A DNA stretch of 64,000 bases, from the IMG/VR virus record IMGVR_UViG_3300034418_004366, positions 1 through 64,000 of that record. One strand, 5' to 3'. Shown in pieces: positions 9,319 through 43,463 of the stretch. The notes under the pieces are model-generated. The model ran no database searches, was not told the DNA's origin, and saw only the letters and a program-made list of their open reading frames with translations. Within the stretch, counting starts at the first letter, position 1. Each line of letters begins with the position of its first letter. This DNA is from a virus. A program made the position numbers and the translations under genes.

Positions 9319-9828
9319 TCAATCCCTTCCGTCAAATTTACTTTCTATTTTTTTATGAATGTTTTTAATTAAAGACTCAATGAATGAATTAGAGGTTTTT
9401 GAAAACACACTAATTGTACCACCGGCTTCATTATTGTGAGAACCTGCATTGTATTCATAAACAGGATGAACGCCTTGGTCTTCTGCTTTTAATCTGTATT
9501 CTTCGCCAAAACCATCAGCAATTTCATTTATTTCGTCTTCAAACCCTCTATACCACAAATCATACCAATCTACATCTAATATTATTTGTATTTCTTCAAA
9601 TGGTTTTGGTATAAAGTCGTCATTATGACGACCAACATTTGGGTTAAAACTCAATATGTAATTAGGAAAATAAATCATTCCATTGTTGAACTCAAAACCC
9701 TCAAGTCCTTCCTTTCTTTCTATTGTATCATAAAGTTCCCGATACAAACCATTCATAAATTCTACTTTAGTGTGATAAGGAATGTGAGTTTTACCACCAC
9801 TGTTATTTTTTAATATGTTTTTCCACAT
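9319..9828 (-). CDS. Tagged small protein (MWKNILKNN N-terminus), unknown
   Basis: 169 residues from the ATG at 9828; a TTG three codons upstream is possible. The first residues MWKNILKNN match the tag shared by 22 late proteins of this virus. The remainder is rich in aromatic and acidic residues and has no recognised domain. This is the tagged gene farthest downstream in the late operon, lying among connector and tail genes where a head-tail joining protein might be expected. That position leaves open a structural role rather than cargo. Confidence 0.7.
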   Translation of the reverse strand: MWKNILKNNSGGKTHIPYHTKVEFMNGLYRELYDTIERKEGLEGFEFNNGMIYFPNYILSFNPNVGRHNDDFIPKPFEEIQIILDVDWYDLWYRGFEDEINEIADGFGEEYRLKAEDQGVHPVYEYNAGSHNNEAGGTISVFSKTSNSFIESLIKNIHKKIESKFDGRD

Positions 9829-9833
9829 ACCAA

Positions 9834-11138
9834 TCAATCCAACATATACACTAAGTCTTTCTTACCATCAATAAGAGCCAAGCCTTCTGCACGAAGTAAA
9901 TCGTACTTTTCCTTCGCTGATATGTTTGCTCCGGTTTCAGCAATCATTATTGTTTGGTCGTCATGTCGTAGAATTTCTGCCGCTACTAATTTGGTAGTGG
10001 CTTCGTGAACTGTAGAAGGTACTCTTCCATCACCAGCAACATAAGAAACAATGATTGAGTTCTTATTATGATAAGGATACTTCTTCAAAAAGAAGATTCT
10101 TCCATCATCGCTCATCATCCAAAAGTCGCCCAAACGCTTCATATCTTCTTTGTCAGTAAAGGCTACAAGAGAACAAACTGTGGGGATTTCATTGGTAGTG
10201 GTAAAGGTTAGTGTGCTTGATGCAGAACCCGTAGCGGCTTTAGAAAGAGTGACAGTAGTTGAAGTATCAATAGAAGAAATAGTAGTAGAAGAAGGAATAT
10301 TAGTTCCTGTGACTTCCATATCTACTGCTAATTTACTAGAATCGGCTACAGTTAAACTAGTGCTAGTATTACTAGTAGTACAGGACTGTTGAATAGTAGC
10401 CTTTAGTGTGCAACCTGCTCCATCATCACCGGATAATAAAGATGAAATTAAGACTTTAGTACCGTCTTGGTCGTCTTTCTGCGAGAAGAAAAAATCGGAA
10501 ACATTGAGATTACTAGATGATAGTTCCTTTGAAGCAGTTGCTCCTGTAAATTGGGAGGTGTTCGATGGAAACTTTTCGTTAATCAAATCAACAATTTCAT
10601 TATTGGTAGTCTTTATTCCGAAGGTAGTACAAAACTCATCGTTTGCTAAAGCGGAAACATCGTTTTCTGCTAACAGTTCAAAAGAAACCCCACTATTAGG
10701 TAGTTGGAAAATAAGAGAATGAATATCTCTAAAGTTTTCTAGGAGAGTAATCGAGGCTTGAGCAGAAGCCAATTCTCGATAGGCGTTTCCTTCCCAAACT
10801 CTTAGACTTACAATCTTTCTAATCTTCATCTGTTGCAGTTGTATAAATCCTACATAGCCTCCATAATAAGACATTATTGGATGGCGAGTAAATTCAAAAT
10901 CCTTGAACTCATTCTTCCAAATGATAGGTCGATAAGAACGGTTAATTTTCTCATCAACCATTCCTTCTATTCTCTTAATGATTGAGCCGACTTGTGCGGC
11001 AGATGGATTAGTACCGGAAGTAAATGGAGTCACCTGTAGTAAATCCGATACTGCTCCAATATCTGTATAGAATCCTTGCCCTGTAGCATAGTTTGGGTTA
11101 ATCGAGGTATAGTCACTGGGGGAGGATGCAACTGGCAT
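9834..11138 (-). CDS. Putative head-tail connector (gp6-like) with inserted Ig-like module
   Basis: 434 residues, ATG start after AAGGTGATATA. The N-terminal 90 residues have the arrangement of gp6-type head-tail adaptor proteins: PFTSGTNPSAAQVGSIIKRI followed by a helix ending in VDEKINRSYRP. The middle (about 240-330) holds a Thr/Ser-rich insert with the same MEVTGT..IP..TT pattern as the protein at 8414-9133. The C-terminal 100 residues are compact and end with a helix. Function is inferred from the N-terminal pattern and from its position between head and tail genes. Confidence 0.6.
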   Translation of the reverse strand: MPVASSPSDYTSINPNYATGQGFYTDIGAVSDLLQVTPFTSGTNPSAAQVGSIIKRIEGMVDEKINRSYRPIIWKNEFKDFEFTRHPIMSYYGGYVGFIQLQQMKIRKIVSLRVWEGNAYRELASAQASITLLENFRDIHSLIFQLPNSGVSFELLAENDVSALANDEFCTTFGIKTTNNEIVDLINEKFPSNTSQFTGATASKELSSSNLNVSDFFFSQKDDQDGTKVLISSLLSGDDGAGCTLKATIQQSCTTSNTSTSLTVADSSKLAVDMEVTGTNIPSSTTISSIDTSTTVTLSKAATGSASSTLTFTTTNEIPTVCSLVAFTDKEDMKRLGDFWMMSDDGRIFFLKKYPYHNKNSIIVSYVAGDGRVPSTVHEATTKLVAAEILRHDDQTIMIAETGANISAKEKYDLLRAEGLALIDGKKDLVYMLD

Positions 11139-14069: not shown

Positions 14070-14609
14070 CTATGCGCTACCATCTCTTACCTTTCTAATT
14101 GCTCTCATGGTTTCATCATAAAGCCTAGACAACATTTTTTCCAACTGCCTGTCTTTTTTACCTACTAGTTTTCTAATGTGATTATTAACCTGAGACATTA
14201 CAGACCTAACTGAACTTTTTGTTCCATCTAAATGACTCAATCTTTCGTAGTCCTTTCCGCTTCCAAATGCAAATGACTCATTGATAATAGCATAGTTATA
14301 GAAAATTTTAAGTTTTTCACCAATAGAATCTAATGTTGCATTACCTTCTGCATACTGTTTAACTATAGAGTCCAATTCCTTAAGAACTGTATCCATGCTA
14401 TTGCCTAATTCTTTTGCATATTCTCTGTGGGATAATTCATGCGTCACTACATTAGCAAACTCAACAACTCTTTCCATATCGTCATAGCCTCTTGCTACTG
14501 TATTAAAATTATCTAAGTTGATTAAAACCTCATCAGTTTGTTTATCATAGACCCCTTTATATCCCCCTTCATTAGTGAATCTGTCCACTTTTAAAATATC
14601 CTTCCACAT
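14070..14609 (-). CDS. Tagged zincin-like metallopeptidase
   Basis: 179 residues starting MWKDILKVDRF, the shared late-protein tag in its short form. Residues 54-62 read VVTHELSHR and contain HELSH (57-61), the HExxH zinc-binding motif of zincin metallopeptidases. A third zinc ligand cannot be assigned with certainty; His or Glu residues in the helix at about 100-130 are candidates. The rest is helical and basic at the C-terminus. A protease carrying the same tag as many small late proteins suggests delivery with the virion and a target in the assembling particle, the envelope or the host. It lies four bases from the GTPase gene. Confidence 0.7.
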   Translation of the reverse strand: MWKDILKVDRFTNEGGYKGVYDKQTDEVLINLDNFNTVARGYDDMERVVEFANVVTHELSHREYAKELGNSMDTVLKELDSIVKQYAEGNATLDSIGEKLKIFYNYAIINESFAFGSGKDYERLSHLDGTKSSVRSVMSQVNNHIRKLVGKKDRQLEKMLSRLYDETMRAIRKVRDGSA

Positions 14610-14613
14610 AATA

Positions 14614-15276
14614 TCAGTAATCCTTTATCATTGTAATAACGCCCTTGTAGACCATTTCCGGCTGAGATTTAGCGGAAATAATATACTTGTAAGTTGGTAT
14701 TCCCTTATCGTTTAACTGTTGCATCCCATATTTAAATGGAGCGAAGATTGAATGCTTAGAAATATCCACATCTTCCTTGTATTTATCTCCCCAAATGTCA
14801 TACTTGTTAGCCCAAATACCAACGGCTAGGGGGTAATCGGTATTCTTTTTCTTTTTACCATTGGGCCAAGTTTGACTACAAATAGCATCAACTAAAAACT
14901 TCCATGCAAGTTGATGGTCTAAATTAGCGGCAGAATCTAAATGTCTATGGTCTACTACAAAAATGACATATTTGACATTTCTACTTCGTATATCGTCAAT
15001 CCACTGCTTCCAATAAATTGCTTCCCCACCCATATCTGCGGTCTTAACAGTGTGGGTATCTCCGTCCATCTTAATTGTTTTTCTAGAAGCCCTTTGCCTA
15101 CCTACAGTTCTATCTCTAATTTCCGGTACTTCGCCTCTCGTTCTAAGTTGATGATGTAAAGTAGTCTTACCTACCATTGTAGCCCCGTAGACTCCAAATT
15201 GGATAGCGTGAATTCTCTTGTAAAATGCCACTGTTGCTTCAATACAAACTACAGCAAAACCGGCTAGAACAGACAT
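14614..15276 (-). CDS. Ras/Arf-like small GTPase with N-terminal hydrophobic segment
   Basis: 220 residues. All main G-motifs are visible: G1/P-loop GATMVGKTT (31-39), G3 DMGG (81-84), G4 NKYD (157-160) and G5 SAKS (201-204); a Thr in the region 50-60 could serve as G2. This is the pattern of translation-factor-class small GTPases rather than a AAA or terminase ATPase. The first about 20 residues (VLAGFAVVCIEATVAF) are hydrophobic and could anchor it to a membrane. The start follows TTGAGGTATTCAA. Downstream of it is a zincin, upstream are two membrane proteins. Virus-encoded GTPases of this type are unusual; its role is unknown. Confidence 0.8.
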   Translation of the reverse strand: MSVLAGFAVVCIEATVAFYKRIHAIQFGVYGATMVGKTTLHHQLRTRGEVPEIRDRTVGRQRASRKTIKMDGDTHTVKTADMGGEAIYWKQWIDDIRSRNVKYVIFVVDHRHLDSAANLDHQLAWKFLVDAICSQTWPNGKKKKNTDYPLAVGIWANKYDIWGDKYKEDVDISKHSIFAPFKYGMQQLNDKGIPTYKYIISAKSQPEMVYKGVITMIKDY

Positions 15277-17309: not shown

Positions 17310-18656
17310 TCAAGCCACATTGGTAATCTTGCCTTGTCCCTTGAAGAAAGAGCAACCAACTTCACCAATAGTTCGGTAAAGTGCTTGGTTGCCGAGTCGT
17401 CCCACACCGAATGGGTTTCCGTTAGAAACACCGTCTTCAAAGTATTGAGTCGGCTTAAGAACAGAGAGCCATAGATGGTCAGTATCCAAGAACAACAAGT
17501 CGCTAATTCCACTATCGGAAGCGTTTAGGGTTGAAGCCATGTCCTTAACAGGAATCAATGGAATGTCGTAGTAGGTTGCCACACGGAAACCAACTTCTGC
17601 ACCCCTAATACCACGAACACCATTATGAGTAGGAACGATTTCCTTTCGGTCCATGAATCGCTCTTGGGACTGTAGTAGGTCTGCAATTGCTTGGATAGTA
17701 TCGTATCCAGTCAAGATAACCTTTGGAGAACCGCCAGCAATTCGTAGATTACGAATCATGTTGTTAAGCAAAGTAAGAGTTAGTGGTCGAACCGAAGATG
17801 CGGCGTAAGAACTGTTGAAGTCTATTTCTGCATCAAGGAAAGAAGCCGCAGTAAATCGCTCATCGCCATAGATTTGAGCAAGATTGTTTGTAGCATCATT
17901 CATTGTATCGGTCATAAGAACTCCACCGTCAGCCGCTAGAAGTTCTGCTCGGCTTGAAACAACCTTCATCAAGGAAGTGTAGTTTCGCTCAATGTTTGCT
18001 AGAGCGGAAACTTCACCATAAACTTGTAGAGGCATAAGGAGCATCTTGTTCTGTGCTTCTGCGTGTGCTTTACCCATATCTTCACGGATAATAGCCCGAA
18101 TATCACCGAGTCCATCATCAATTTGAGCCATTTCCATTGCTAGTTCGGAAATATCGAACTGATGTGCAATGGTTTTAGGACTCATAAAGAGTTGAGCGTA
18201 AGTTGGGGCCATAGAGCCAAGTCCGTCAGCCGCAGTAGAAAGTCCTGCGTTTTCTGGAACACCACCAATTTCGTCAGCGTGTGGGTTATCTCCACCAATA
18301 CCGTTTGCTGATGAACCGTCACCTGTAATATCAACTGCTAGAGTAGAACCGGAACCACCAAATGGTCGGCTCTTAAGAATTCTCCAACCGGAAGAAGTGT
18401 AAGGTCGCTTTGATAGCATAGCGAGAGCATTTACTTCTCGGTTTAGCATTGACCAAACTTTCTGTCCGTAAAGTTGGTTGTAGTATCCAGTTGTAGTACC
18501 GATACCAGTCAAGCCGCTTGCGCCAGCGTCTGCAATATCGTGTGCAGTGTGTAGTCCTTGAACTGCACCTGCTTGTTTCAATACAGAGTTTCCACCAAAG
18601 GCAGGTAGTCCGTATGTCGCCGCTTCTAAGTCTCTAATTGTGTTAATGTATCCCAT
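17310..18656 (-). CDS. Major capsid protein, HK97-fold type
   Basis: 448 residues, ATG with TTGAGGTGAATTAA upstream. The order protease/scaffold, capsid, small head proteins is that of HK97-like viruses. Features consistent with the fold are an Ala/Gly-rich N-arm, a central helical segment (about 185-215, IRAIIREDMGKAHAEAQNKM), and a C-terminal domain with conserved-looking GSPKVILTGYDTIQAI and YYDIPLIPVKDM strands. Codon use is the most GC-rich of the structural genes, as expected for a highly expressed protein. No shared tag is present at either end. Confidence 0.85.
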   Translation of the reverse strand: MGYINTIRDLEAATYGLPAFGGNSVLKQAGAVQGLHTAHDIADAGASGLTGIGTTTGYYNQLYGQKVWSMLNREVNALAMLSKRPYTSSGWRILKSRPFGGSGSTLAVDITGDGSSANGIGGDNPHADEIGGVPENAGLSTAADGLGSMAPTYAQLFMSPKTIAHQFDISELAMEMAQIDDGLGDIRAIIREDMGKAHAEAQNKMLLMPLQVYGEVSALANIERNYTSLMKVVSSRAELLAADGGVLMTDTMNDATNNLAQIYGDERFTAASFLDAEIDFNSSYAASSVRPLTLTLLNNMIRNLRIAGGSPKVILTGYDTIQAIADLLQSQERFMDRKEIVPTHNGVRGIRGAEVGFRVATYYDIPLIPVKDMASTLNASDSGISDLLFLDTDHLWLSVLKPTQYFEDGVSNGNPFGVGRLGNQALYRTIGEVGCSFFKGQGKITNVA

Positions 18657-18666: not shown

Positions 18667-19872
18667 TCAAATATTTCCGCCAACGGCTTTGTGAATGTCG
18701 CTCCAACTCATGTCAGCAATCTCTTCTGTTGAGAAAACCTTAGTTGTTGTTGCGGCTTCTGTAGCCTTGCGAATCGTGTTCTTTTCTTCTGTAAGTGACT
18801 TACGGAGTTCGGAGAACTCTGCGTTAAGTCGTGCGATTTCCGATTGTGCATCGTATTCTGCCTTAGCGACCATTTCTGCTCGGTGGCTTTCTTCCTTAGC
18901 GAATCTCTTAGCGAAGGTTTCTTCTAGAGTTTCGAGTCCCATCTTTTCAAGTTGTTCTGCTCGGTATTGCTCGTAAGCCTTCTCGATGTTTGCTGAACTT
19001 AGGTTAAGGGTTCTAAACTCATCATTAGTGAAGTTCTTTGAAACCATTCCTTCTTTCTTTGCTTGTTCTCCGGCATCTTCAATGTATTCTCCAGCACCGC
19101 CAAGGTTAGTCTCATCGTTTCCGTCGAGAGTAGTGGCCTTCTTTGCTTCATCCATGTATTCCATAGACTCGGTATCCATCATTTCATCTTCCATCTTCTC
19201 GTCCAATGGGTGAGGTGCGCCTCGCTCCATTGACGGTTCTTCTTCTTCTTTTCGTAGAGTATTAACTTCTTCTAGAAGAGTATCTAGTTCAGCCAATGCT
19301 TTTTCTAATTTGTTCATTGTTTTGTCCTCCTTTAATATATCGAACCTCGCTTCGGGGTTGATACCTTTTTCGCATATTGTGACTTCGTGAAGTTCTAGTT
19401 TGCTTATCTCACTATACTCCCCTAAATCATCATGGTGTTTCTTCACTTTTTGTAGTGCTTGCCCACCTATGCTAAAAGACCTCAACGACCCTTTGCGAAT
19501 TCCTCGGTTTATTTCCTTTGCTTTTTCAATATCATCTCTTAATTTAATTACTACGAAGAACCCAACATCATCTACTTGGGTCTTCCATAGTTTTCCATTG
19601 CTATCTCTATGAGATTCAACTACTTCTCCAACTTGAACATTGGAGTGGTTAGTCATTACATTGCGGAACTTATTATGTCCCATGAATTTCTTAACTGCCT
19701 CATTTAGGGCCTTTAGAGTGATTAAGTCGTTTTGCTTATCTACCATTTCGATAGAAGCATAGCCGCCAATCATTAAATCATCATTCGATGCCTTCAAGAT
19801 GGAGAAATCATTCTCCTCCATTGCAGACATAATCATAGACATGATGCTCAAGCCGTCTTGTTGTAAATACAC
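18667..19872 (-). CDS. Prohead maturation protease fused to scaffold, with C-terminal MSW-type tag
   Basis: 401 residues from a GTG at 19872; an ATG at 19842 is an alternative and neither has a strong ribosome site. The N-terminal half resembles HK97-type (S78/U35) prohead proteases: a His in NVMTNHSNVQVGEVV, a Ser in GSLRSFSIGGQ, and ELHEVTICEKGINPEA before the domain end. Residues about 190-385 are a Glu/Lys/Ala-rich coiled coil, typical of a fused scaffold. The last 14 residues MSWSDIHKAVGGNI match the tag found at the start of 22 late proteins. FDILKED at the junction also resembles the tag and could be a processing site. Confidence 0.82.
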   Translation of the reverse strand: MYLQQDGLSIMSMIMSAMEENDFSILKASNDDLMIGGYASIEMVDKQNDLITLKALNEAVKKFMGHNKFRNVMTNHSNVQVGEVVESHRDSNGKLWKTQVDDVGFFVVIKLRDDIEKAKEINRGIRKGSLRSFSIGGQALQKVKKHHDDLGEYSEISKLELHEVTICEKGINPEARFDILKEDKTMNKLEKALAELDTLLEEVNTLRKEEEEPSMERGAPHPLDEKMEDEMMDTESMEYMDEAKKATTLDGNDETNLGGAGEYIEDAGEQAKKEGMVSKNFTNDEFRTLNLSSANIEKAYEQYRAEQLEKMGLETLEETFAKRFAKEESHRAEMVAKAEYDAQSEIARLNAEFSELRKSLTEEKNTIRKATEAATTTKVFSTEEIADMSWSDIHKAVGGNI

Positions 19873-19879
19873 TATTTAA

Positions 19880-22807
19880 CTAGTTCGGTTGTTTTGTGTA
19901 TTTTAAGTCCTTAAACTTGTCTTCATAAATATTCCAAATACCTTCATCAGTGTCCTTATCAACAGGCTTCTGTTCATATCCTGTCCACGCTAACCACATA
20001 TCCTTGCCTTCTACAGGAACTACTCTAAAGTGAATCTTAGTTTCAAACTTATTTCCATTTAGAATATATTCGTGGTATCCGTGTCTTTGTACTCCGATTT
20101 CTACATCTCCAAGGTCAATCAATTTCTCCTTTGAAACATTTGTAGAGATTTGAGCAGGGAATTTATTGGCCTTTCCAAACAAAGAGAATATATCATCGTC
20201 GGAGTCTAGGTCAATATACCAAGATAAGTTCTCTCCTTTGTAATTTACAATGAAGTCCAAGTTTCCATCCTTTCTAGAATAGACTTTAAATTCAGCCTTT
20301 TCCGACTCTTTTTGAATTTCACTATCGTCAACAGAAATCTTACCATCACTATATGACATTCCTTCCGAGGCTTGTATCCAAGAACCAAGCCTATTCTTAT
20401 CGCTTTCTAGAACTGATTCATAATCCCCTGCATGATTACTAGCCAAAAAATTATGCAAGTCTCCTATGGTCTGTGGCTTGCCCTTTCCTTTTACAAACTG
20501 CTTAATAGACGCTCTTAATTTTCCTTGAATGGTTTTTAGAGCCATCTCTGCTTCTTGTTTCCACATATCTAAGTCTGCAATAGCGTTCTTCGACATTAGA
20601 TTATTTTCATTAAATCCGTAAATTGTAAATCCATCCATGCTCTTAGCGATTAAAGTAGCACTACCATGTATGTTATCAGTAATTGTTATTCCTTTTTTTA
20701 GTGCTTCTACTTTGTACTTCAAAGACGGCTTAGTATCCTTAGATAGTAGTTCTAAAGTCACAATCTTATCGGGAGTAGCGGCCTCTGGAACTTCGATTAC
20801 CTTAGCAGAATAGAGAGTAAATCTACCATCCGATTCTTTTACTTCATCTACCTTGACTCTAATAACTTCTCCAACCTTAACATCTATCTTGGTATTTAGT
20901 GCCTTACCTACATTCATGTAGAGTTTGTTATTCATTTCTACAATGTGTTTTCCTTCTTCTAGAACTGGGCCAGCCCCTAAAGAATAAGAGAATAGACCTG
21001 ACTTAGTAGACTTCTTATCTAGAACTAGCATATCTAAATCTACAAATTTCTTCCACTTAATCCACTTAGGATTTTTCTTAGTTCCTACGAAATAAGTAGA
21101 AGTTAAGTCTTTGATAACAACTCCTTCCGCAGTAGGCATCTCCATTATTTCCTTAGCATATTCTTCTATGTCTTTCAAAGAATCTGCGATTCTAGTATCT
21201 TTCTTAGAAGGGAATGCGATGGCATCGGAAGACTTTGCCGAGTAATTATTGAATAGAATGTTAATCCTAATCTGTAATTCATCATCCATCAAGTTCTTTT
21301 CTTCGTGTCGCATTATGTCAAAAACATGCGCTCTTAGTTTTGCTTCGGGGTATTTATTTTTGAATACATGGGCAACTGTATCTGCTCTATGTAGGGCTTT
21401 ATCACCATCGAATAGAATTAGTTCTGCATCTAGAATGCAGTCGCCATAAGATTTCTTTTTCATTTCTGCTACTTGTTCAGTACATTTTTCAGTAATGTCC
21501 TTACCGTTAAATGAAAAGATTTCAACTTTATCATCAATCTTATGAATTTGTATTCTCATTCCATCGTACTTTTCTTGTACGACATAATCTCCGGAGAATC
21601 CCATCAATTCATTCATATCTTCAATATCGAATATACGATACATTGGTTTGTTGGGAGTTAGGAAGTTGGAGATGGCCTTCTCTTCCTCGGACTTTTTAGA
21701 TTTAAGCATAGCGTATTTATCCGAAAAGTCCGAACCAAAGGAATTACAACTTTCGTATCTATCAAGAATTTCTTGTTCTTTGGGTCTAGTATTCTCGCTA
21801 AATATGTCACTAATAAATTCATACAATGCCTCACAGTCAAGTGAGTTAAAGTATTCCGTTAATTCTTTTAATTCATTTTCCGGAGTATCTTCATACCTGC
21901 GGCCAGTTTCCTGTGTAAATTTTTCCCAAGAACCATGATGAGCAATAAACGATTCAAACATTTCTCGTTTGAGTTCTATGTAGTCCTGTTTTAACTGCTC
22001 GCAACAATCTCCCGAAACATCAGCATCCATTTCAACTACTGCTACATTTTGAGTCACATCGGGTTTTTCTTCTACTCTCATAGTAGGGTTTTCCATTCTT
22101 TCTTTGAATTTTAATTCTTGAGCCATCATAGCACTCATTGATTTCTTTAATTCTACTCCAACTAATTTACTCCAGTCCTCTTCGGAGTGTCCGGATAAAA
22201 ATACCTTCTTGAGTTCCTTTAGCGCATTCTTGAATTTAAAATTCACCTTCTTACTATCTTTATCATCGCCGTAGTGTTCAATAACAAAAAGAGGAACATC
22301 ATCTAATGCCAAGTCTAGTCCTTCCAAACCATCAGTTATCTCGTCACCTTGATATTCTAATTCATTATAGAGTTTAGAAGATAAGGCATCATCACCATTT
22401 CTAATAGCATAGTGAATGAACTTCATAAAAACATCTACATTCGATAGTAGAGATTCTAGTACATTACCTTTCATTTTCTTAGAGAATGGGTCGTTGACAT
22501 TCTCGGAGTCGAATCTCATTTGCTTAACAGAATCATAGACGATTTTAGCAGAGCCACTTGTAGGACTGCCTGTATCATCAGCCTCAAGGTGACGCTCATC
22601 TAAATATTCTTTGAGTTCTTTACCAAGAGGACTAAGGCTATCATACGATTCTTTAATCTTCTCAAGTATATTTCTCCACCGACCTCCATACTCTTTGGGG
22701 TCGGATTTTGCAGATAGATAAGCGACTCTAGTTTCCTCGAAGAGAGATAAAATTTCGTTAGATAAAGGAGCCTTATCCTTCTCGAACATTAGGCCAGTGG
22801 TCGCCAT
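19880..22807 (-). CDS. Very large protein with central ATP-dependent DNA ligase core
   Basis: 975 residues from the ATG at 22807 (GTGATTCG upstream; a TTG at 22819 is the alternative). Residues about 390-680 carry the nucleotidyltransferase motifs of ATP-dependent DNA ligases: motif I EKYDGMR with the catalytic Lys near 413, motif III DCILDAELILFD, IIIa HVFDIM, IV EGVVIKD and V KWIKWKK, followed by an OB-like segment. The N-terminal 380 residues are helical and acidic without a recognised ligase DNA-binding domain. The C-terminal 250 residues are unrecognised, with a beta-rich end. It lies between portal and protease genes, an odd place for a ligase, so it may be packaged or fused to a structural domain. 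Confidence 0.8.
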   Translation of the reverse strand: MATTGLMFEKDKAPLSNEILSLFEETRVAYLSAKSDPKEYGGRWRNILEKIKESYDSLSPLGKELKEYLDERHLEADDTGSPTSGSAKIVYDSVKQMRFDSENVNDPFSKKMKGNVLESLLSNVDVFMKFIHYAIRNGDDALSSKLYNELEYQGDEITDGLEGLDLALDDVPLFVIEHYGDDKDSKKVNFKFKNALKELKKVFLSGHSEEDWSKLVGVELKKSMSAMMAQELKFKERMENPTMRVEEKPDVTQNVAVVEMDADVSGDCCEQLKQDYIELKREMFESFIAHHGSWEKFTQETGRRYEDTPENELKELTEYFNSLDCEALYEFISDIFSENTRPKEQEILDRYESCNSFGSDFSDKYAMLKSKKSEEEKAISNFLTPNKPMYRIFDIEDMNELMGFSGDYVVQEKYDGMRIQIHKIDDKVEIFSFNGKDITEKCTEQVAEMKKKSYGDCILDAELILFDGDKALHRADTVAHVFKNKYPEAKLRAHVFDIMRHEEKNLMDDELQIRINILFNNYSAKSSDAIAFPSKKDTRIADSLKDIEEYAKEIMEMPTAEGVVIKDLTSTYFVGTKKNPKWIKWKKFVDLDMLVLDKKSTKSGLFSYSLGAGPVLEEGKHIVEMNNKLYMNVGKALNTKIDVKVGEVIRVKVDEVKESDGRFTLYSAKVIEVPEAATPDKIVTLELLSKDTKPSLKYKVEALKKGITITDNIHGSATLIAKSMDGFTIYGFNENNLMSKNAIADLDMWKQEAEMALKTIQGKLRASIKQFVKGKGKPQTIGDLHNFLASNHAGDYESVLESDKNRLGSWIQASEGMSYSDGKISVDDSEIQKESEKAEFKVYSRKDGNLDFIVNYKGENLSWYIDLDSDDDIFSLFGKANKFPAQISTNVSKEKLIDLGDVEIGVQRHGYHEYILNGNKFETKIHFRVVPVEGKDMWLAWTGYEQKPVDKDTDEGIWNIYEDKFKDLKYTKQPN

Positions 22808-22815
22808 CGAATCAC

Positions 22816-23046
22816 TCAAGCGTCGTTAATATCTCCAGCAAGACCATATCCGGAATGAGTACCTGTATCATTCTCAATCTTAGTATCGTCTTTTTCTGCC
22901 TTTGGCTTCTTAGTCTTAACATCGGGGTCTTCTATTTCCAATGGTAGAGTTTCTCTACCTTCTTCTTGAAGAACTTCCTTTGCTTTACGGACCAATCTAA
23001 TTGCTCGACTAATTTGTGCTTCCTCTTTTGTCATTTTTTCCGGCAT
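22816..23046 (-). CDS. Small charged helical protein, unknown
   Basis: 76 residues from the ATG at 23046, chosen because GGGAGG lies seven bases upstream; an ATG at 23061 is in frame but lacks a site. The N-terminal half is a Lys/Glu-rich helix and the remainder is low-complexity and acidic. No domain recognised. It is between a C-terminally tagged protein and the ligase protein. Confidence 0.55.
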   Translation of the reverse strand: MPEKMTKEEAQISRAIRLVRKAKEVLQEEGRETLPLEIEDPDVKTKKPKAEKDDTKIENDTGTHSGYGLAGDINDA

Positions 23047-23047
23047 A

Positions 23048-23275
23048 TCAGTTCCTCCCATTTACGAACTTTTCAATGTCATTCCAACTCATCTTATGGA
23101 TAGCATCAGCATCCGGTACAGATTGATTTGACATGGATGGAGTAGGGCCATCGACAACAACAAAGCCCGACTTCATAAGCAGGTTATCTTTGTTGTAGAC
23201 TGCTTGTTCTAGAGTCTTAATTCTACCGACTAATTCCTTTAGAATAATCAGCATGTCTTCATTATTTTCACTCAT
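23048..23275 (-). CDS. Small coiled-coil protein with C-terminal MSW-type tag
   Basis: 75 residues. Residues 1-35 form a likely coiled coil (ENNEDMLIILKELVGRIKTL). The C-terminus MSWNDIEKFVNGRN aligns without gaps to the end of the protease/scaffold (MSWSDIHKAVGGNI) and to the N-terminal tag of the small late proteins. This makes it a candidate scaffold or adaptor. The start overlaps the upstream stop. Confidence 0.65.
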   Translation of the reverse strand: MSENNEDMLIILKELVGRIKTLEQAVYNKDNLLMKSGFVVVDGPTPSMSNQSVPDADAIHKMSWNDIEKFVNGRN

Positions 23276-23621
23276 CTCTCAAGTCCCCCTTTCTCTTTGG
23301 ATATACGACTTCTCGTAGTTGACGATACAAGACTTCGTACTCCTTACGAAGTTTGCTAGATAGGGCCACCATATCAATGTTCCTTTCGTCAATGCCGTCG
23401 AACTTCTTTTTCATCTTATCATCGGATTTAACCAAGTCTAACTCTCTTAACATGTCAATGAGTTCACCCATTCGAGTGAAATCTTGACCAAAGTATTCAG
23501 TTGGTTCTGCCGATTGTAGAGTCTTCTTCAATCGCTTTCTCTTCTTTTCATCTAGTGAGTCCAAAATTGGACTGTTTTCTTTTTCTATCATATCGGATTG
23601 TTTTAGTATTCTTTCCCACAT
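23268..23621 (-). CDS. Tagged small protein (MWERILKQS), unknown
   Basis: 117 residues starting MWERILKQS, a short form of the late-protein tag. The rest is helical and highly charged, ending in a basic segment. No domain recognised. It lies between the 629-residue protein and the C-terminally tagged 75-residue protein. Confidence 0.65.
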   Translation of the reverse strand: MWERILKQSDMIEKENSPILDSLDEKKRKRLKKTLQSAEPTEYFGQDFTRMGELIDMLRELDLVKSDDKMKKKFDGIDERNIDMVALSSKLRKEYEVLYRQLREVVYPKRKGDLRDE

Positions 23622-25510
23622 TATTCTTCCTCCTCATTTTGTTCTAATCTTTGTAGAATTGTTGCTCTTTCTTCTTCGGAAAAGTTGCTCTCTATTCCTA
23701 ACTTTGTCATAATTTTCAATATATTTCTAGTTATCAAAATAGTTATTCTTCTATTTTGTCCCTCGGACATTGGATAAAATGTAGGGGGAAGATTTGGGAA
23801 ATAAGTAGAATCAATTTTTCCAATCAAATAATCAACAATATCTTCCGGACTGGTAAAATCTACACTCATCCTTTCCATGCTTTCTACACTAGTAATACCC
23901 CTAGTTTTCATTTCGTCAACGGCCTCTTCTATCACACTATAGTCGGAAAGCAGTAGATTTTGTAGTTTGTCAAATCCATATTTTTTAATCAATGGACTTT
24001 CCTTTATTTTCTCGGAAACTTTATTTCTTAGCCTTACTATTTCAGCCCTAGATAATTTACCCAATGCCTTTCTTTTCTTCTGTGTCCTAGTTCTAAGAGC
24101 AGAGGACCCCTTTTCTCCAGCATAATCTAAAATGTATTCAAATAGAGTTCTACTATCAACTCTCTTGTTTAACTCTTGATTCATCCTTTCTCCGTTTTTC
24201 ATCAAAACAGTATATCCTTTAAACAAAGGAGTATAATAGTTAAGGGAATCTCCACCAGCCTCCCCTAATTTCTTTTTTCCCGCTTCGTAATCGACAAACC
24301 TGTTATCCCTAACATCGAAACCTTTTATTTTATTTGCATTAGTTTTCATTTGTTCCAAAAATCTAACTCTAGAGTCAATTACTGTAACCTCCTTTCCAAG
24401 AATAGTTTCTAGCCTCTTTCTAATTTCTTTGTTATTTCTTCGCACAGCGTTTTCATTCTTTTCCAACAATGTTTTTTTGACAAAACTAGCCAAACTGCCT
24501 TTGTATTTTATGGCCTTTGTCATTTTATTAGTGGTATTCATTGTATCCTTTTTAACCATTAAGTCTTCAATAAGTCCTAATTCACCTTCGCCTAACAATT
24601 CTTGTAGCGCATTGATTCGGTCTTCTAAGTCTCCTTCGTCCTCGTAAGAACCCACAAGCGTCAGCATATTTTTTAGTAGGCTAGTAAGAACTTTTTTATG
24701 TCTATCAAAAGCCGTATCTATGTTAGGTATTTCTTTTCCATCTACTTCCGTAGTGCCGACAGGTCTAATCTCTCTAGGATTATCAAGATAATCAGTAATG
24801 TTTCTAAAATTGTCGAGCAAAGAACTCCTAGGAGAGCCTTCCTTTTCTTTTAGTCTTTTAATCAACTTTTCTATAGTTTTCATTGTATTTTCTATACTCT
24901 TCTTTTTCTTACTGTAGTAAGCATTTAGAATAGAATCTTTTTTTTCCGGTTGTAAGATTTCTTTTTCCGAAAAAGAGGAAAAGTCCTTTTTATCTTTTAC
25001 TTTAACGGCGGCTAATTCTTCTTCCATTAGTTTAATGTAAGCATCAAGTCTAATCTCAAGATTTTTCTCTATTACCTTATTGAGTTCCTTTACTTGTGTT
25101 TTCAAGTCCTTGCTCAAATCTTCTATTCCATCCTTTTGTGTAAATAGCATCTTGGCTTCTTTCTTACCTTCCTCATCTAGAGTCTTGGTATATTTTCTAA
25201 GTAGAAAAGAAATTTCAGAATCAGTATCTTCAACTTCATTTAACGCATTAAAATATTCCTTATCCAAATCCAAATTATTTTCACTAAGAGTGTCTCTCAA
25301 ATCATTCACAAGAATGTCTTCTTGCTTTGCATAGTCATTGGGTTTGACCAATATAGAATGTGAATATGGTTTCTTAACTTCTTTAATTTCAAAAATAAAA
25401 TTCTTAGAGAGGGCCTCAGCCGCTTTTATGTCTCTTTTTACTAGTTCCTCGAATCTCTTTTTTTCAGATTCAGTAAGGTCTACTTTCAAAAGAAGCAAAG
25501 AAATCACCAC
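23621..25510 (-). CDS. Large helical protein, unknown
   Basis: 629 residues from a GTG at 25510; a TTG four codons later, spaced four bases from GGTGAT, is equally possible. Lys/Glu/Leu-rich and nearly all helical, with predicted coiled coils at about 100-240 and no cysteine. Position next to the portal suggests an internal virion or scaffold-like core protein. The first residues (LLLLKVDLTESE) weakly recall the ILK part of the tag but lack the Trp, so I do not count it. Confidence 0.6.
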   Translation of the reverse strand: MVISLLLLKVDLTESEKKRFEELVKRDIKAAEALSKNFIFEIKEVKKPYSHSILVKPNDYAKQEDILVNDLRDTLSENNLDLDKEYFNALNEVEDTDSEISFLLRKYTKTLDEEGKKEAKMLFTQKDGIEDLSKDLKTQVKELNKVIEKNLEIRLDAYIKLMEEELAAVKVKDKKDFSSFSEKEILQPEKKDSILNAYYSKKKKSIENTMKTIEKLIKRLKEKEGSPRSSLLDNFRNITDYLDNPREIRPVGTTEVDGKEIPNIDTAFDRHKKVLTSLLKNMLTLVGSYEDEGDLEDRINALQELLGEGELGLIEDLMVKKDTMNTTNKMTKAIKYKGSLASFVKKTLLEKNENAVRRNNKEIRKRLETILGKEVTVIDSRVRFLEQMKTNANKIKGFDVRDNRFVDYEAGKKKLGEAGGDSLNYYTPLFKGYTVLMKNGERMNQELNKRVDSRTLFEYILDYAGEKGSSALRTRTQKKRKALGKLSRAEIVRLRNKVSEKIKESPLIKKYGFDKLQNLLLSDYSVIEEAVDEMKTRGITSVESMERMSVDFTSPEDIVDYLIGKIDSTYFPNLPPTFYPMSEGQNRRITILITRNILKIMTKLGIESNFSEEERATILQRLEQNEEEE

Positions 25511-25728
25511 TTGTTTTCTGTCCTTCTTCTTTTCTTAGCAGGTAGTTGAACTACATCGGGAGTATCTGCACTACTTCTAGTAGGGCGATGAGTAGTATCG
25601 GGTGGTAGTCCCCCTACAGAATAGTCTCTAGATTTCTTAGTAGTTCTATCGTCTGCGGCCCTTTGGGAACGAACTTGTGCTAGTTCCTTTGCCAATCTTC
25701 TTTCTTTTTGTGCAATGTCTTCTTTCAT
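25504..25728 (-). CDS. Small basic protein, unknown
   Basis: 74 residues, strongly basic, with a helical N-terminus and a disordered Arg/Lys/Thr-rich remainder ending AKKRRRTENKW. It directly follows the portal gene (one-base overlap). A nucleic-acid-binding or portal-associated role is possible, but nothing identifies it. Confidence 0.55.
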   Translation of the reverse strand: MKEDIAQKERRLAKELAQVRSQRAADDRTTKKSRDYSVGGLPPDTTHRPTRSSADTPDVVQLPAKKRRRTENKW

Positions 25729-27371
25729 TATGGTATTCTCCTTTCGCTTCTTCTATCGACATTTTGATTGCCAGCATCAGTAGGCAATCCCGTCATGCGC
25801 TTATCGGGGCCTACGCTCATGGATGGTTTATTTCTTGTGGTAGCGGGATTCTCTTGAGGCTTACCTCCTCCCTCTAACATTTCTCTATTCATCTCATCAA
25901 TATCTCTTTGGTCGAAGTTAGAACCTACTAATCCATCTACACCGGATTGTGACTTAGCCTCTTCTCCTTCTTGAGGAGGTTCCTCTTTAGGCTCCGGTTT
26001 ATTGAAAGTAAAGTTTCCATCCTCATCCATTTCTACTTCAAATCCTAAGTTCTTAACAGAAGCCGCAATATTGACTTCTAATTCTCTTCGTCTAAGTCCA
26101 GCAATTTCATCTTCTTCTTCCGAAGGAGGCAGTTTCAAATTCCAATCAGTAATACCAAATTGTTTTGTTAGGAACGGGAAGACATAATTATTGTAGACAT
26201 TCTGTGCCATTTGAACAGCACGATTTGTCACAAGTATTTGCATACCCTCATTGTTAAGTCCTCCACTCGTAGTATTGTCTGCCATGAAGACCTTACTAAC
26301 TCCATAGAAAGCAGAAATTCTATCTCTCAAATCATCCTTAACAGAAACATATTCCATTTCTTTGAGGCTGTCCATGAACTTAATCCACTCAACTGAACCC
26401 TTACCATTGTCGGCTTCGATTCCCATAACTGGAATATAGTGAGGGTCTTGTTCCATTCTTTCTTTGACTCCTCTCCAAAATGCGGCCATAGAGTCCATGT
26501 TTCTAGTCTGTACTGCTAACAAACCTCTAGGCATTCTGCTCTTAGTGTAAGAAGAATTGACATAATTTTCCATAGCAATAAGAGTCATTATGTGATTAAA
26601 TAGTGTCATAACCGGAGAGTGGCCGTATAGTCTACTAGGACTGTATTTACTAAAGTGAAGTATTTCTCCTTTTATGTAGAATTGTTCCTCTCCGTTTGCT
26701 CGGTTGACATAGTGTATCGGATGCAAGTTGCTACCACATTCGCTACATAGTTCGTGCGGCTCTTGTGCTACAAATTGCCTGTGGTTGATACAAGTAAATC
26801 CTTTATTTCCTCTAACTCCCAACTCATCAGCGTAAATTGCCATAGTCACTGGGTCGCCTCGGAATAGTTCTTTGATTCTGTGCATCCTAATCTTACCATT
26901 GCCATCCAAGTAATATTCTTTCACAAGAACAATGTAGGCATCATCCATGATATTTAGGTCGTCTTCTAATTCTTTTAAAACATCAATAAAGAGTTGCTCG
27001 GACTTGTTAATATATCCTTCAATAAATTTCTCAGCATATTCCAATTGCTTAGGGTCTGGCTTCACTAAATCAGTAGAGCCACATCTAGCACATTCACTGA
27101 CAGGTCTTTGATGAGTCTTTTGACAAGCATTACATCGAGCCTCGTAAGCCTTCTCCCAAATGTATCCTCTTCGGAAAATTTCTTGCTTCAATTGAGTTAT
27201 ACAAGTACGGACAATAACAGATTGTTGAGTTATGTTGTAGACCATTGGAGCCGTCATCATGTACGACTGCTCTCTTTCCTGTATCCCAATGTTATACACC
27301 CTGCGGTCTGCTGGCTTAGGTGTAGACCTTCTAAACAATCCACTGATGCCAAACCGTCGCTTTTCCGCCAT
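25728..27371 (-). CDS. Portal protein with zinc-ribbon insertions
   Basis: 547 residues. Portal identity rests on the order of features: an N-terminal segment with VYNITQQSVIVRTCITQLKQEIF, a central wing with EILHFSKYSPSRLYGHSPV (the hallmark H.......YG.SP of portals), a helix with MPRGLLAV, the DRISAFYGVSKVFMAD segment and a charged, disordered tail. Two likely zinc sites are inserted: CNAC and CARC at 80-97, and C194 with CSEC at 209-212. Length is within the normal portal range. The gene starts with ATG and follows the first block of tagged small genes; it overlaps the next gene by one base. Confidence 0.85.
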   Translation of the reverse strand: MAEKRRFGISGLFRRSTPKPADRRVYNIGIQEREQSYMMTAPMVYNITQQSVIVRTCITQLKQEIFRRGYIWEKAYEARCNACQKTHQRPVSECARCGSTDLVKPDPKQLEYAEKFIEGYINKSEQLFIDVLKELEDDLNIMDDAYIVLVKEYYLDGNGKIRMHRIKELFRGDPVTMAIYADELGVRGNKGFTCINHRQFVAQEPHELCSECGSNLHPIHYVNRANGEEQFYIKGEILHFSKYSPSRLYGHSPVMTLFNHIMTLIAMENYVNSSYTKSRMPRGLLAVQTRNMDSMAAFWRGVKERMEQDPHYIPVMGIEADNGKGSVEWIKFMDSLKEMEYVSVKDDLRDRISAFYGVSKVFMADNTTSGGLNNEGMQILVTNRAVQMAQNVYNNYVFPFLTKQFGITDWNLKLPPSEEEDEIAGLRRRELEVNIAASVKNLGFEVEMDEDGNFTFNKPEPKEEPPQEGEEAKSQSGVDGLVGSNFDQRDIDEMNREMLEGGGKPQENPATTRNKPSMSVGPDKRMTGLPTDAGNQNVDRRSERRIP

Positions 27372-27420: not shown

Positions 27421-27708
27421 TCACCATAATTTCTTACAGGCTAGACATTTTGGAGTAGTAATTCTTCCTTTACATTGGTCGCAATTATGCCTTGCTCGGA
27501 AATTTTTCCTACGGGCGGGGTCTTTATGAGTCCCTCCACCACGATTTTTTCCCTTGCGTTTGTAGTTGCCATATCCTTTAGCACCTGCATGAATCTTTTT
27601 ACCTTCGTGAGTAAGCATCATAATTTTCTTACCTTTTCTATCGGAACGATAAACACGGCCTACTCTCATATCCTTTTTGTCTTTCTTTAGTACTTCTTCC
27701 CAACTCAT
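27421..27708 (-). CDS. Tagged basic protein with C-terminal zinc ribbon
   Basis: 95 residues from the ATG at 27708, which starts the shared tag MSWEEVLKK and has GAGGG upstream; a longer frame opens upstream but ignores this. Middle region is Lys/Gly-rich. The C-terminus carries CDQC and CLAC (CxxC-x9-CxxC), a zinc ribbon. Basic charge and zinc ribbon suggest nucleic-acid binding. It is the tagged gene closest to the portal. Confidence 0.7.
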   Translation of the reverse strand: MSWEEVLKKDKKDMRVGRVYRSDRKGKKIMMLTHEGKKIHAGAKGYGNYKRKGKNRGGGTHKDPARRKNFRARHNCDQCKGRITTPKCLACKKLW

Positions 27709-27718
27709 AGCATATCCC

Positions 27719-28120
27719 TCAAATCTCTTCACTATAATCTGGAAGATTATCGTACCTTTCACTCTCGAATTTCTTACCGCCATCGGGCATGTCATTCATA
27801 TTATAGTAAGGCTTCTTGCTTTTTCGCCTATCTCTATGACTTACCATAGCCCTATCCATCATGGCCTTGTGAAATCGAACATAAGGTCCCCATATTTTTC
27901 TTTTTTGACCTCCCCCATAGGTCTGCAATCGCCTACCCGTTCTGTCATAATAATACACCCTAATTTTATAGTCAAATTCTTTGACTCTTTTTAATTCCTT
28001 TTCATGGTACTCGGCTTGATTCAAAAAGGTAGAGCGATAAAACTCATCTCTATTTGTTGGTATTCCCTTATGCGGGACTGTTTCTTCATTGTCGTTTTTT
28101 AGTACTTCTTCCCAACTCAT
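27719..28120 (-). CDS. Tagged basic protein, unknown
   Basis: 133 residues starting MSWEEVLKNDNEE. The first eight residues are identical to those of the next gene downstream. The body is rich in Arg, Lys and Tyr (YYYDRTGRRLQTYGGGQKRK) and positively charged until an acidic end. No domain recognised; DNA binding is conceivable from charge. Confidence 0.65.
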   Translation of the reverse strand: MSWEEVLKNDNEETVPHKGIPTNRDEFYRSTFLNQAEYHEKELKRVKEFDYKIRVYYYDRTGRRLQTYGGGQKRKIWGPYVRFHKAMMDRAMVSHRDRRKSKKPYYNMNDMPDGGKKFESERYDNLPDYSEEI

Positions 28121-28129
28121 AACAATTCC

Positions 28130-28447
28130 TCACAAAAACTCATAAATAGTCACTGGTTTATACCCAATAAATTTACCATCAATAACAATTCTTTGCTTTT
28201 TTCGTTTAGTTCCTAACAGATTTCTTTTCTTCAAATGATTTATGATATAATTTCTTATCCTATCTGATTTAATATTTTTATGTAGTTTAGCATACCTGTC
28301 TCTTACATCTTCTATGAATGTATGGAATTCATTTGGATTTAGGACTTTCCCTTTTAATCGTTGGGCTTCTTGAATAGCAACCCTGTTTAGAAAGCCGTAG
28401 TCGATTTTCCTTGCGCCCCCCCGCTTAATTACTTCTTCCCAACTCAT
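28130..28447 (-). CDS. Tagged basic protein, unknown
   Basis: 105 residues starting MSWEEVIKRGG. Lys/Arg-rich with a helical centre (GFLNRVAIQEAQRLKGK) and a beta-rich C-terminal 40 residues. No recognised domain. The start overlaps the upstream stop by four bases. Confidence 0.65.
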   Translation of the reverse strand: MSWEEVIKRGGARKIDYGFLNRVAIQEAQRLKGKVLNPNEFHTFIEDVRDRYAKLHKNIKSDRIRNYIINHLKKRNLLGTKRKKQRIVIDGKFIGYKPVTIYEFL

Positions 28448-28845
28448 TTTTCTTTCCTCAATTGGTTTTCTTTAGAAGTCTTATCATCATCAATTGGGCC
28501 ACCTTTAGCCCAAGTGTAGCAAGTTCTTGCAGAATGACATTTGAAATCGTGCATCCAACAGTAGCCTAATCGACCATCTTCATCTGTGTTTAGTGGCATA
28601 CATTCGTCCATTCTTGGAGATATGTCAAACGCAATACAATTACTGCAATTAGATTCCTTAGCAACATCAGCAGTAGTATTCCACTTCTTAGCATATTCTT
28701 CCCAATACTTTTCGTCGCTTAGATTGAGAGGACCGTATTGAATATGCTTTTCTTTTACTGCCCTATCTCTATTCTTAGTATTGAGTTTCAAATCTTGAGT
28801 AGCCAAAGGGCATTCTAGTTTTTTTAGAATAATAGTCCAATCCAT
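28444..28845 (-). CDS. Tagged cysteine-rich protein, possible metal binder
   Basis: 133 residues starting MDWTIILKK, a variant of the tag. Between about 60 and 112 there are several Cys in the pattern CSNC...C...C...C...C plus His residues, ending CYTWAKGG. This would support one or two zinc sites or an iron-sulphur cluster; the sequence does not say which. No family recognised. Confidence 0.65.
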   Translation of the reverse strand: MDWTIILKKLECPLATQDLKLNTKNRDRAVKEKHIQYGPLNLSDEKYWEEYAKKWNTTADVAKESNCSNCIAFDISPRMDECMPLNTDEDGRLGYCWMHDFKCHSARTCYTWAKGGPIDDDKTSKENQLRKEK

Positions 28846-28854
28846 AATATCACC

Positions 28855-29385
28855 TTAAAGTGTATCGCTAATCTCTTCCCATTTTTTGGTTTCTTTTAGG
28901 TAAGAAACTAATTTGTTGTAGTCTGCTTGTGCAAATAAATACCTTTCTTGTTCCGGATTGAATTCTGGAAGATACTCTTTTAATTTACGCAAATCTCTTG
29001 ATTCGATTATATCCTTCTCAACATCTTTAGATATAGTTTTCTTTCCTTTAAAATTCCCAATATAATACCTGTCTTCGTAATCCATATTTCTGTGTCGAAT
29101 ATAGATACTAACATCTGTAAATACATTGCCGTTATATATTTCTATTTCTCCCGAAGCACTTAATTCAAAGTCTTTAGGAAAACCCATATCAAACTTTTCT
29201 ATTGGAATATGGCTGTCTGCTTTTTCCTCAAATAAATAAAAATCCCCATTGTGCGGGAAATGAGAAAAATACAGTAGGCTAGGTTTAAGAAAGCCCTTTC
29301 CTAGCAAAGCCTTGTTTATCTCCTGTTTAGATTTATCATCTAAATCATTATAGTCAGTTTTTTTCAAAATATTAGTCCAACTCAT
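28855..29385 (-). CDS. Tagged protein, paralogue of the gene at 40010-40777
   Basis: 176 residues starting MSWTNILKK. It is clearly homologous over its length to the protein encoded at 40010-40777: both read TDYNDLDDKSKQEI or VDYNDLDDKSKQEI after the tag, share MGFP.DFEL/MGFPDYFEL in the middle, and ADYNKLVSYLKETKKWEEIS near the end. The fold is unknown, mixed alpha/beta and acidic. The pair brackets the terminase-containing segment and shows that tagged genes duplicate within the genome. Confidence 0.7.
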   Translation of the reverse strand: MSWTNILKKTDYNDLDDKSKQEINKALLGKGFLKPSLLYFSHFPHNGDFYLFEEKADSHIPIEKFDMGFPKDFELSASGEIEIYNGNVFTDVSIYIRHRNMDYEDRYYIGNFKGKKTISKDVEKDIIESRDLRKLKEYLPEFNPEQERYLFAQADYNKLVSYLKETKKWEEISDTL

Positions 29386-29765
29386 GCTGTAAATGGCCCC
29401 CTTCTTTTACTACTTGGTTTGTGAGTGTAAATATCTCCATCAGTGTGAATGTAAATTTTCTTTCTTCTAACGAGGCCATCTATGGCTCTTTTTAGAGTTT
29501 TAGTGTCAGCAATACTCTTTAGATTTTTCATACCTAAAGCACCACCTTCTTTCTTAATTTCAGCGAGAATCAATTTCTCCACCTTTGCTAATTCTCCTTT
29601 ATTCAACAAATCAAAATCTTCACGGCTGATTTTGCCATCTTTATTTCTATCTAAGTGCTTACTTTGTTTAGGTGTCAATTTCTTATTTACACATTCTTCA
29701 CAGTTGCATGGCTTACCCATCTTTTCTGTTCCGCAGTGTGCCTTTACTATGTCCTTCCAACTCAT
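29382..29765 (-). CDS. Tagged EF-hand protein
   Basis: 127 residues starting MSWKDIVKA. A short Cys cluster (CG...CNCEEC, 11-25) precedes one canonical EF-hand loop, DRNKDGKISRED (39-50), with Asp, Asn, Asp, Gly, Ile, Ser in the expected positions and Asp at position 12. The C-terminal 65 residues look like a winged-helix fold (ILAEIKKEGG, then KRAIDGLVRRKKIYIHTDG). Calcium binding is supported by the loop; a DNA-binding role for the C-terminus is a guess. Confidence 0.72.
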   Translation of the reverse strand: MSWKDIVKAHCGTEKMGKPCNCEECVNKKLTPKQSKHLDRNKDGKISREDFDLLNKGELAKVEKLILAEIKKEGGALGMKNLKSIADTKTLKRAIDGLVRRKKIYIHTDGDIYTHKPSSKRRGPFTA

Positions 29766-30160
29766 GCCCCTCTTCTCCTTTTGTATGTTTTACATGCGGC
29801 ACAGGTTGGCCTACATCTTTGTTTAGTTCCTTTAGAAGCGTCTTTACGACCACAAGGTTTTGTTCCCTTTTTATCATCTTCACATGATTGACAAGAAACC
29901 CAACCCTTTGCTTTACCACTTCCTCCTCTTCTGTTGAACCAGCCATGTAATCCTGATTCTTTTTCTGCTTTGAAATTATCTCCACCTTTCTTGACTTTTC
30001 CTTTAGTTCCCTTTCTACATTGAACCATAAAGCCGGATTTGTAGGCTGAACTTTTCATTCCGTATTTTTTATCTGCTAGTTTAGCGCACCTATCTTTAGG
30101 CTCGCCTTTACTATTATGGGTGGCAGTGGCCTTAACTTTTAGAATCTCTTGCCAAGTCAT
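29762..30160 (-). CDS. Tagged Cys/Lys-rich protein with DUF5872-like region
   Basis: 132 residues starting MTWQEILKV after GGGAGGTGA. Residues 20-55 contain YGMKSSAYKSGFMVQCRKG, like the SAYASG..V.CRK region of small basic proteins in cyanophages and algal viruses. Residues 68-115 contain GLHGWFNRRGG, WVSC and KPCGRKDASKG, the pattern I associate with DUF5872. Highly basic with about ten Cys. Such proteins often occur in large virus genomes but their function is unknown; the tag suggests virion association here. Confidence 0.7.
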   Translation of the reverse strand: MTWQEILKVKATATHNSKGEPKDRCAKLADKKYGMKSSAYKSGFMVQCRKGTKGKVKKGGDNFKAEKESGLHGWFNRRGGSGKAKGWVSCQSCEDDKKGTKPCGRKDASKGTKQRCRPTCAACKTYKRRRGA

Positions 30161-30248
30161 TTCCTTTCACCTCCCAACATTTTTTGCAGTATCCAAATGG
30201 TCTTAAATCTATAACATCACAAGTATAACATTGACCACAATATTTCAA
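30132..30248 (-). CDS. Very small zinc-ribbon protein
   Basis: 38 residues from a TTG at 30248, six bases after AGGTG. It contains YCGQCYTC and YCKKCW, i.e. CxxCxxC then CxxC, a compact zinc ribbon. It starts ten bases after the LAGLIDADG-like gene and overlaps the start of the DUF5872-like gene by 29 bases. The coherent Cys spacing argues that it is real despite its length. Confidence 0.5.
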   Translation of the reverse strand: MKYCGQCYTCDVIDLRPFGYCKKCWEVKGNDLARDSKS

Positions 30249-33308: not shown

Positions 33309-33328
33309 ATCGTTCACCCCTTCTTCTA

Positions 33329-33655: not shown

Positions 33656-33660
33656 GTCAA

Positions 33661-34131: not shown

Positions 34132-34136
34132 GTCAA

Positions 34137-38630: not shown

Positions 38631-38641
38631 TGTAATTTCTC

Positions 38642-39609: not shown

Positions 39610-39618
39610 AATAATTCC

Positions 39619-39999: not shown

Positions 40000-40009
40000 A
40001 ATAATCACC

Positions 40010-42757: not shown

Positions 42758-42758
42758 T

Positions 42759-43217: not shown

Positions 43218-43218
43218 T

Positions 43219-43461: not shown

Positions 43462-43463
43462 AA

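Follow-up and report, generated by a model that had tools for sequence, protein, structure and literature searches.

What would a DNA ligase do among the genes that build a virus head? The window analysed here, the whole stretch of 64,000 nucleotides at positions 1 to 64,000 of IMG/VR virus record IMGVR_UViG_3300034418_004366, encodes an ATP-dependent DNA ligase within its head operon, and a second ligase gene lies in the replication module of the same virus (Table 1). We asked whether the head-operon gene is a genuine ligase, how firmly it is tied to its position, what surrounds its catalytic core, and what it may do there.

The virus

The record is 65,461 bp long. Its structural genes form a block on the minus strand, and the block on the plus strand contains a UvrD-like helicase, GroES/GroEL (chaperonins recognised by eye) and the second ligase. 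Two opposed gene blocks, an HK97-type head module, GroES/GroEL, a DNA ligase and marine archaeal virus relatives were the features compared with those of Magrovirales, the viruses of Poseidoniales (PMC10768690, PMC12999244, PMC5332604); the comparison was made with these published descriptions rather than with named genomes, and the virus matches the order. The relatives of its portal are archaeal tailed viruses, namely Druskaviridae and a Methanomassiliicoccales virus. In one other record, IMGVR_UViG_3300021958_000021 (G007, 184,733 bp), the head-operon ligase and the replication ligase are each present in two different versions, and this record is apparently two magrovirus genomes joined.

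Table 1 Features of the ligase locus and of the second ligase, in window coordinates.
Feature	Position (nt)	Strand	Remarks
Major capsid protein (MCP)	17310–18656	−	
Prohead protease (S78)	18667–19872	−	directly downstream of ligase; C-terminal MSWSDIHK tag
Head-operon ATP-dependent DNA ligase	19880–22807	−	975 aa from ATG at 22807
C-terminal beta domain	19970–20302	−	aa 840–950; predicted LigD 3'-phosphoesterase fold
Winged-helix-like domain	20330–20599	−	aa 741–830; secondary structure HHHH-EE
OB-fold domain	20765–21019	−	aa 601–685, predicted; motif VI degenerate (AKVIEVPEAATPDK)
Nucleotidyltransferase (NTase) domain	21020–21667	−	aa 385–600; motifs I, III, IIIa, IV, V
Motif I EKYDGMR, catalytic Lys417	21554–21574	−	aa 416–422; K[YF]DGMR in 108/108 unique relatives
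Optional, mobile hypervariable module	21695–22141	−	aa 227–375, ~147 aa; CC...C...C...FSDKYAMLK
N-terminal all-helical domain	22148–22786	−	aa 12–224
Small genes g81, g75, g117, g629, g74	22816–25728	−	between portal and ligase; frames overlap or adjoin
Portal protein	25728–27371	−	
Terminase large subunit	31884–33317	−	upstream, same block as portal
N-terminal tag ORFs (19)	9322–9861, 14073–14624, 23271–23633, 27424–30166 (six), 33332–34140 (two), 38472–44270 (eight)	−	
Replication-module ligase of the record (G000)	64112–65461	+	= L083:18613-19962; just past window end

A divergent DNA ligase with an invariant catalytic lysine

An initial annotation had placed a 975-residue protein with a ligase core at this locus. 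The open reading frame is genuine and runs on the minus strand, a point that the annotation had left out. Its ATG is located 8 nt past the stop of the upstream gene, and the same frame can be read from a first possible start, TTG at 22819 (19880–22819, 979 aa); residues are numbered here in the 979-aa form. DNA_ligase_A_M on aa 409–590 is the sole Pfam domain above cut-off (E=8.9e-28; score 97.8 bits, cut-off 26.2), with RNA_ligase just under its own cut-off of 27 at 26.4 bits; the Pfam scan returned ligase-type domains only and no polymerase domain. Sequence matches in the PDB are almost all to Lig1-, Lig3- and Lig4-type and archaeal DNA ligases. The best NCBIfam match, dnl1 (TIGR00574), scores 106 bits, and since this falls under the model cut-off of 217.8 we count the ligase as divergent. 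A tblastn search of 50,697 phage records gave no match, and no family for the protein was found in PHROGs or PADLOC; a scan of IMG/VR with the ligase gave 352 relatives, 80 of which were retained.

The core had been described as bearing a complete set of ligase motifs. All four motifs quoted in that description are in place, and motifs III, IIIa, IV and V read DCILDAELI, HVFDIM, EGVVIKD and KWIKWKK, but motif VI (RxDK) is not recognisable. In the OB domain the Arg of this motif is absent, the conserved strand there reads AKVIEVPE....PDK, and an invariant PE...P.K stands in place of the motif. Mutation of the catalytic Lys in relatives, which the initial annotation had named among the observations that would refute its reading, was never encountered, the residue being kept in every one of 108 unique relatives of the head-operon ligase. 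In a divergent group of these ligases, motif I reads KYDGLR or KFDGMR. The NTase domain has a dN/dS of ~0.01, and the catalytic domain is under very strong purifying selection.

An invariant position in the head operon

The genes run in the order portal-g74-g629-g117-g75-g81-ligase-protease-MCP, and throughout this stretch neighbouring genes are spaced by -14 to +10 nt. The position between portal and prohead protease is as it had been claimed, and it recurs in every relative examined, so that the portal-ligase-protease-MCP order is far beyond chance. Among 124 distinct ligase loci, the protease is found downstream in all 101 with room to show one, and the portal upstream in 47 of 47. When contigs were picked by their portal, the ligase lay between portal and protease in 72/72, and in a divergent group reached via the portal of L226 it occupied the slot in 20/20, giving 92/92 portal-to-protease blocks with a ligase for both portal-picked sets together. 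A total of 193 of 193 testable adjacencies keep the slot, certain contigs being common to several counts, and a head-operon ligase is present in every head block examined. Ligases of the divergent group are ~705 aa long and about 40% identical; they have a much shorter N-terminus and occupy the same slot. This group was first met in GTDB, in L224, L225, L227 (Maricaulis MAG) and L226 (Altibacter MAG), which are magrovirus-like contigs that were apparently misbinned into bacterial MAGs.

Across 60 genomes, ligase distances follow those of the portal (r=0.93; permutation maximum 0.52), the protease (r=0.93) and the MCP (r=0.82). The ligase gene co-evolves with the portal and is passed down as a component of the head block. 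The overall picture drawn earlier, of a head-module ligase encoded in the structural operon and distinct from the replication ligase, holds up, but the late expression attached to it comes down to operon structure, from which alone we infer it.

On the minus strand of the window, 19 late-strand ORFs share a short N-terminal tag, M(S)W..ILK, and C-terminal versions (MSWSDIHK and MSWNDIEK) were observed at the protease (18670–19875) and the neighbouring g75 (23051–23278). The tag was found neither on the plus strand of the window nor in five shuffles, and MSWxxILK was seen near neither terminus in any of 169 ligases. As a guess, it could possibly serve as a capsid-targeting signal. The structural block also encodes, downstream of the capsid gene, a small GTPase-like protein (14614–15276, minus strand) with a weak SRPRB match, below cut-off.

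Domains flanking the catalytic core

Large unknown domains had been reported on both sides of the core. The flanks are indeed big, but ~147 aa of the region before the core make up an optional and mobile module, and the C-terminal flank is LigD-phosphoesterase-like by predicted fold. Full-length AlphaFold2 prediction from a 47-sequence alignment gave a pLDDT of 72.5 and a pTM of 0.32; local confidence is fair, and because of the pTM the arrangement of the domains is not readable from this model. Foldseek searches with it matched the NTase and OB domains to archaeal and eukaryotic DNA ligases with E down to 1.6e-14, the best being archaeal.

Structure prediction of the flanks had been proposed in the initial annotation. 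The N-terminal domain is predicted to be all-helical (aa 19–220 in the full-length model); no relatives of it were found by sequence, a profile comparison of this helical domain against the ligase 2 DNA-binding domain gave no match, and in the divergent group (L226/L227) it measures only ~95 aa. A separate model of aa 686–979 (pLDDT 74) has a phosphoesterase (PE)-like fold, with Foldseek ranks 1–7 taken solely by LigD or archaeal NHEJ 3'-phosphoesterase structures (3p43, 3n9b twice, 3n9d, 3p4h, 5dmp and 2lj6; E 3.5e-4 to 1.9e-2). Because comparison of the C-domain with PE by sequence profile gave no support, the likeness is a claim of predicted fold only. In a by-eye comparison of LigD PE sequences with the C-domain alignment, the PE catalytic His, Asp and Arg, at the positions known from P. 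aeruginosa LigD, are not kept; across head-operon ligases the C-domain has invariants of its own (GYHEY, a K, an H and an R). The predicted fold hints at DNA ends, though without the phosphoesterase catalytic residues.

An optional module exchanged between ligases

The module before the core contains four Cys and terminates in FSDKYAMLK. It is missing from ~98% identical relatives and absent in L006–L010, and it was seen independently in L003, L004 and L005. Altogether 32 of 169 ligases carry it: in 5 it lies between the N-domain and the NTase domain, and in 27 it separates the winged-helix domain from the PE-like one, with one instance of a doubled module. Every one of the 44 collection matches to its signature falls in the head-operon ligase family, with none elsewhere in the scan. 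L222, L203 and L176 are among the other contigs with the module, and between the window and L222 the module ends share 92–94% DNA identity, whereas the ligase cores are 79.5% identical. Its dS is 0.57, against near saturation in the rest of the gene, and its dN/dS is 0.44–0.63. The conserved ends and these two rates together argue that the module is a horizontally exchanged, fast-evolving add-on; that it contacts a host factor is a guess.

Other origins of the module were considered. Self-BLAST and profile comparison were negative for a duplication of the N-domain. The ORF at 33329–33664 near TerL gave E=0.05 with a 2-sequence HMM and was not among the matches of a 30-sequence HMM, so a module common to both was rejected. 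An intein or homing element was also set aside, the ~147 aa having no such features.

A second ligase that is dead in the window's clade

A replication-module ligase of ~505–540 aa is additionally present in all 11 of the longest contigs first searched, and most near-complete genomes have one. In most it is intact, with DYKYDGNR, EGIIVKD, WAKYKPP and a motif VI of RIRDDK. The gene of the present record is found complete in L084, L112, L114 and L117. In the window's clade (L083, L112, L114 and L117), motif I has become EYRYGGIR (or RYSGIR, RYGGIK) and motif V VVIHSPP or similar, with the catalytic Lys and both motif V Lys lost. The dead ligase stays an open frame throughout this clade, with a dN/dS of 0.07–0.14, and is a conserved, clade-specific pseudo-ligase. 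In the 88-kb record G045 of the divergent group, a replication-module ligase was not found and the head-operon ligase is the only one. Since the replication ligase has been inactivated in the window's clade and was not seen in G045, the constant member of the pair is the head-operon ligase, and the replication-module ligase seems dispensable in certain lineages.

Possible roles of the head-operon ligase

We propose, at about even confidence, that magroviruses reserve the product of this gene, as an ATP-dependent DNA ligase, for the head stage, that is, for packaging or delivery. Lys417 would take AMP from ATP, and the enzyme would then seal nicks or annealed ends of viral DNA. Through its helical N-domain and its C-domain, which has the PE-like, end-binding fold without its old catalysis, the ligase may be held at the portal, the prohead or the DNA ends, and the viral genome would be made continuous on capsid entry or after delivery into the next host. 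Whether the protein is head-associated at some stage is, in our estimate, an evenly balanced matter. Its presence in the virion is plausible, and has to be seen beside the degenerate motif VI, the absence of Ku and the missing MSWxxILK tag. A more elaborate version is rather unlikely: a virion-packaged, end-joining-type ligase with a repurposed LigD-phosphoesterase-like domain, delivered to reseal ends, nicks or host-inflicted breaks, and with a swappable module shaped by host conflict.

The main competitor to a head-stage ligase is an ordinary intracellular enzyme that is expressed from a late operon, seals replication or recombination nicks in the late concatemers and so readies them for packaging, is never head-associated and replaces the replication ligase in certain lineages. 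The dead or missing replication ligases of the window's clade and G045 are what such redundancy would lead one to expect, and the lack of the tag on the head-operon ligase also fits. However, a free ligase needs no fixed slot, yet no testable adjacency departs from the one between portal and protease; both ligases are intact in most genomes; and plain nick sealing calls for neither big extra domains nor a mobile module. We regard this explanation as possible but would not bet on it. An NTase fold retained for another task, be it as an RNA ligase or repair enzyme, in protein AMPylation or as a structural portal-to-scaffold part, would suit the degenerate motif VI and the unusual flanking domains, and T4 RNA ligase 1 (gp63) also serves as a tail-fibre attachment factor. 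Such a role is nevertheless improbable given the wide difference between the DNA_ligase_A_M and RNA_ligase scores and the archaeal DNA ligases that head the Foldseek matches, while the unfailing motif I Lys and the very low dN/dS of the NTase domain speak for catalysis. An assembly chimera or one-off fusion might be suspected from the ~147 aa by which the window protein exceeds its close relatives. This is hardly credible at all, as the ligase is found in hundreds of contigs and the extra stretch is a module with independent copies in three contigs and in 27 other ligases that carry it elsewhere in the protein, at a second position.

Comparison with known systems

Archaeal and eukaryotic ligases of the Lig1 type (TIGR00574 dnl1; for example PDB 3rr5, 3gde and 4eq5) are the best structural matches and share NTase motifs I, III, IIIa, IV and V and the OB domain. 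The head-operon ligase differs from them in having no detectable Lig1 DNA-binding domain and a degenerate motif VI, in adding helical, winged-helix-like and PE-like domains, and in its location in a head operon. As in LigD or an archaeal NHEJ ligase with PE, a ligase core and a PE-like predicted fold are joined in one polypeptide, but the PE-like part is C-terminal and lacks the PE catalytic residues, and there is no polymerase domain. Mycobacteriophages that carry Ku rely on the LigD of their host during infection (Pitcher et al. 2006, cited by PMC7719229); in the present analysis Ku was found in none of 17 records. The magrovirus replication-module ligase, of ~510 aa, belongs to the same genomes and NTase superfamily, with ~28% identity to the head-operon ligase, but it lies in another gene block, has a canonical motif VI in intact copies and is dead in the window's clade.

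African swine fever virus (ASFV) NP419L is a late DNA ligase of the nucleoid and is present in the virion (PMC12172490). It is a precedent for the proposed reading and resembles the head-operon ligase in being an ATP-dependent DNA ligase that a DNA virus makes late, although ASFV is an unrelated eukaryotic virus. To our knowledge, NP419L has no head-operon link and no PE-like domain.

One publication mentions in passing that the ligase of a group A magrovirus neighbours its prohead protease (PMC7318539). Beyond this, we found no publication on the role of the ligase, its invariant slot, its LigD-PE-like domain and mobile module, or the dead second ligase; the core magrovirus literature lay outside the search, and earlier comment there is possible.

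Magroviruses, whose hosts are a dominant group of marine archaea, are abundant and so far uncultured. In every genome examined the ligase keeps its place in the portal-protease-capsid operon, and certain lineages have lost or inactivated the replication ligase. This implies that magroviruses treat DNA sealing during packaging or delivery as an important step in its own right, and it would open a way to test how linear packaged genomes turn continuous in archaea. Through its predicted domains the protein connects NHEJ-type end processing with a viral head operon, and its mobile hypervariable module suggests that an arms race over the DNA-sealing step has gone unnoticed.

As a further precedent, it has been proposed that enzymes whose genes lie among virion genes are themselves packaged and injected (PMC5512222). 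Polyvalent or virion-operon phage enzymes and the zeta-toxin protein of Druskaviridae are like the head-operon ligase in being large multidomain enzymes between portal and protease, but the polyvalent enzymes and HVTV-1 gp115 carry effector domains where the present protein carries a ligase core. In Druskaviridae, the sister family, the portal-protease slot holds other large proteins, among them HVTV-1 gp115, which is annotated as a zeta toxin, and the two stretches of HVTV-1 searched gave no homologue of any of the ligase's domains. By sequence, the C-terminus of HVTV-1 gp115 (L229:12623-16564) looks like an ADP-ribosyltransferase, and gp113 (L229:8230-11376), another large protein of this slot, looks metallopeptidase-like (HEMGH).
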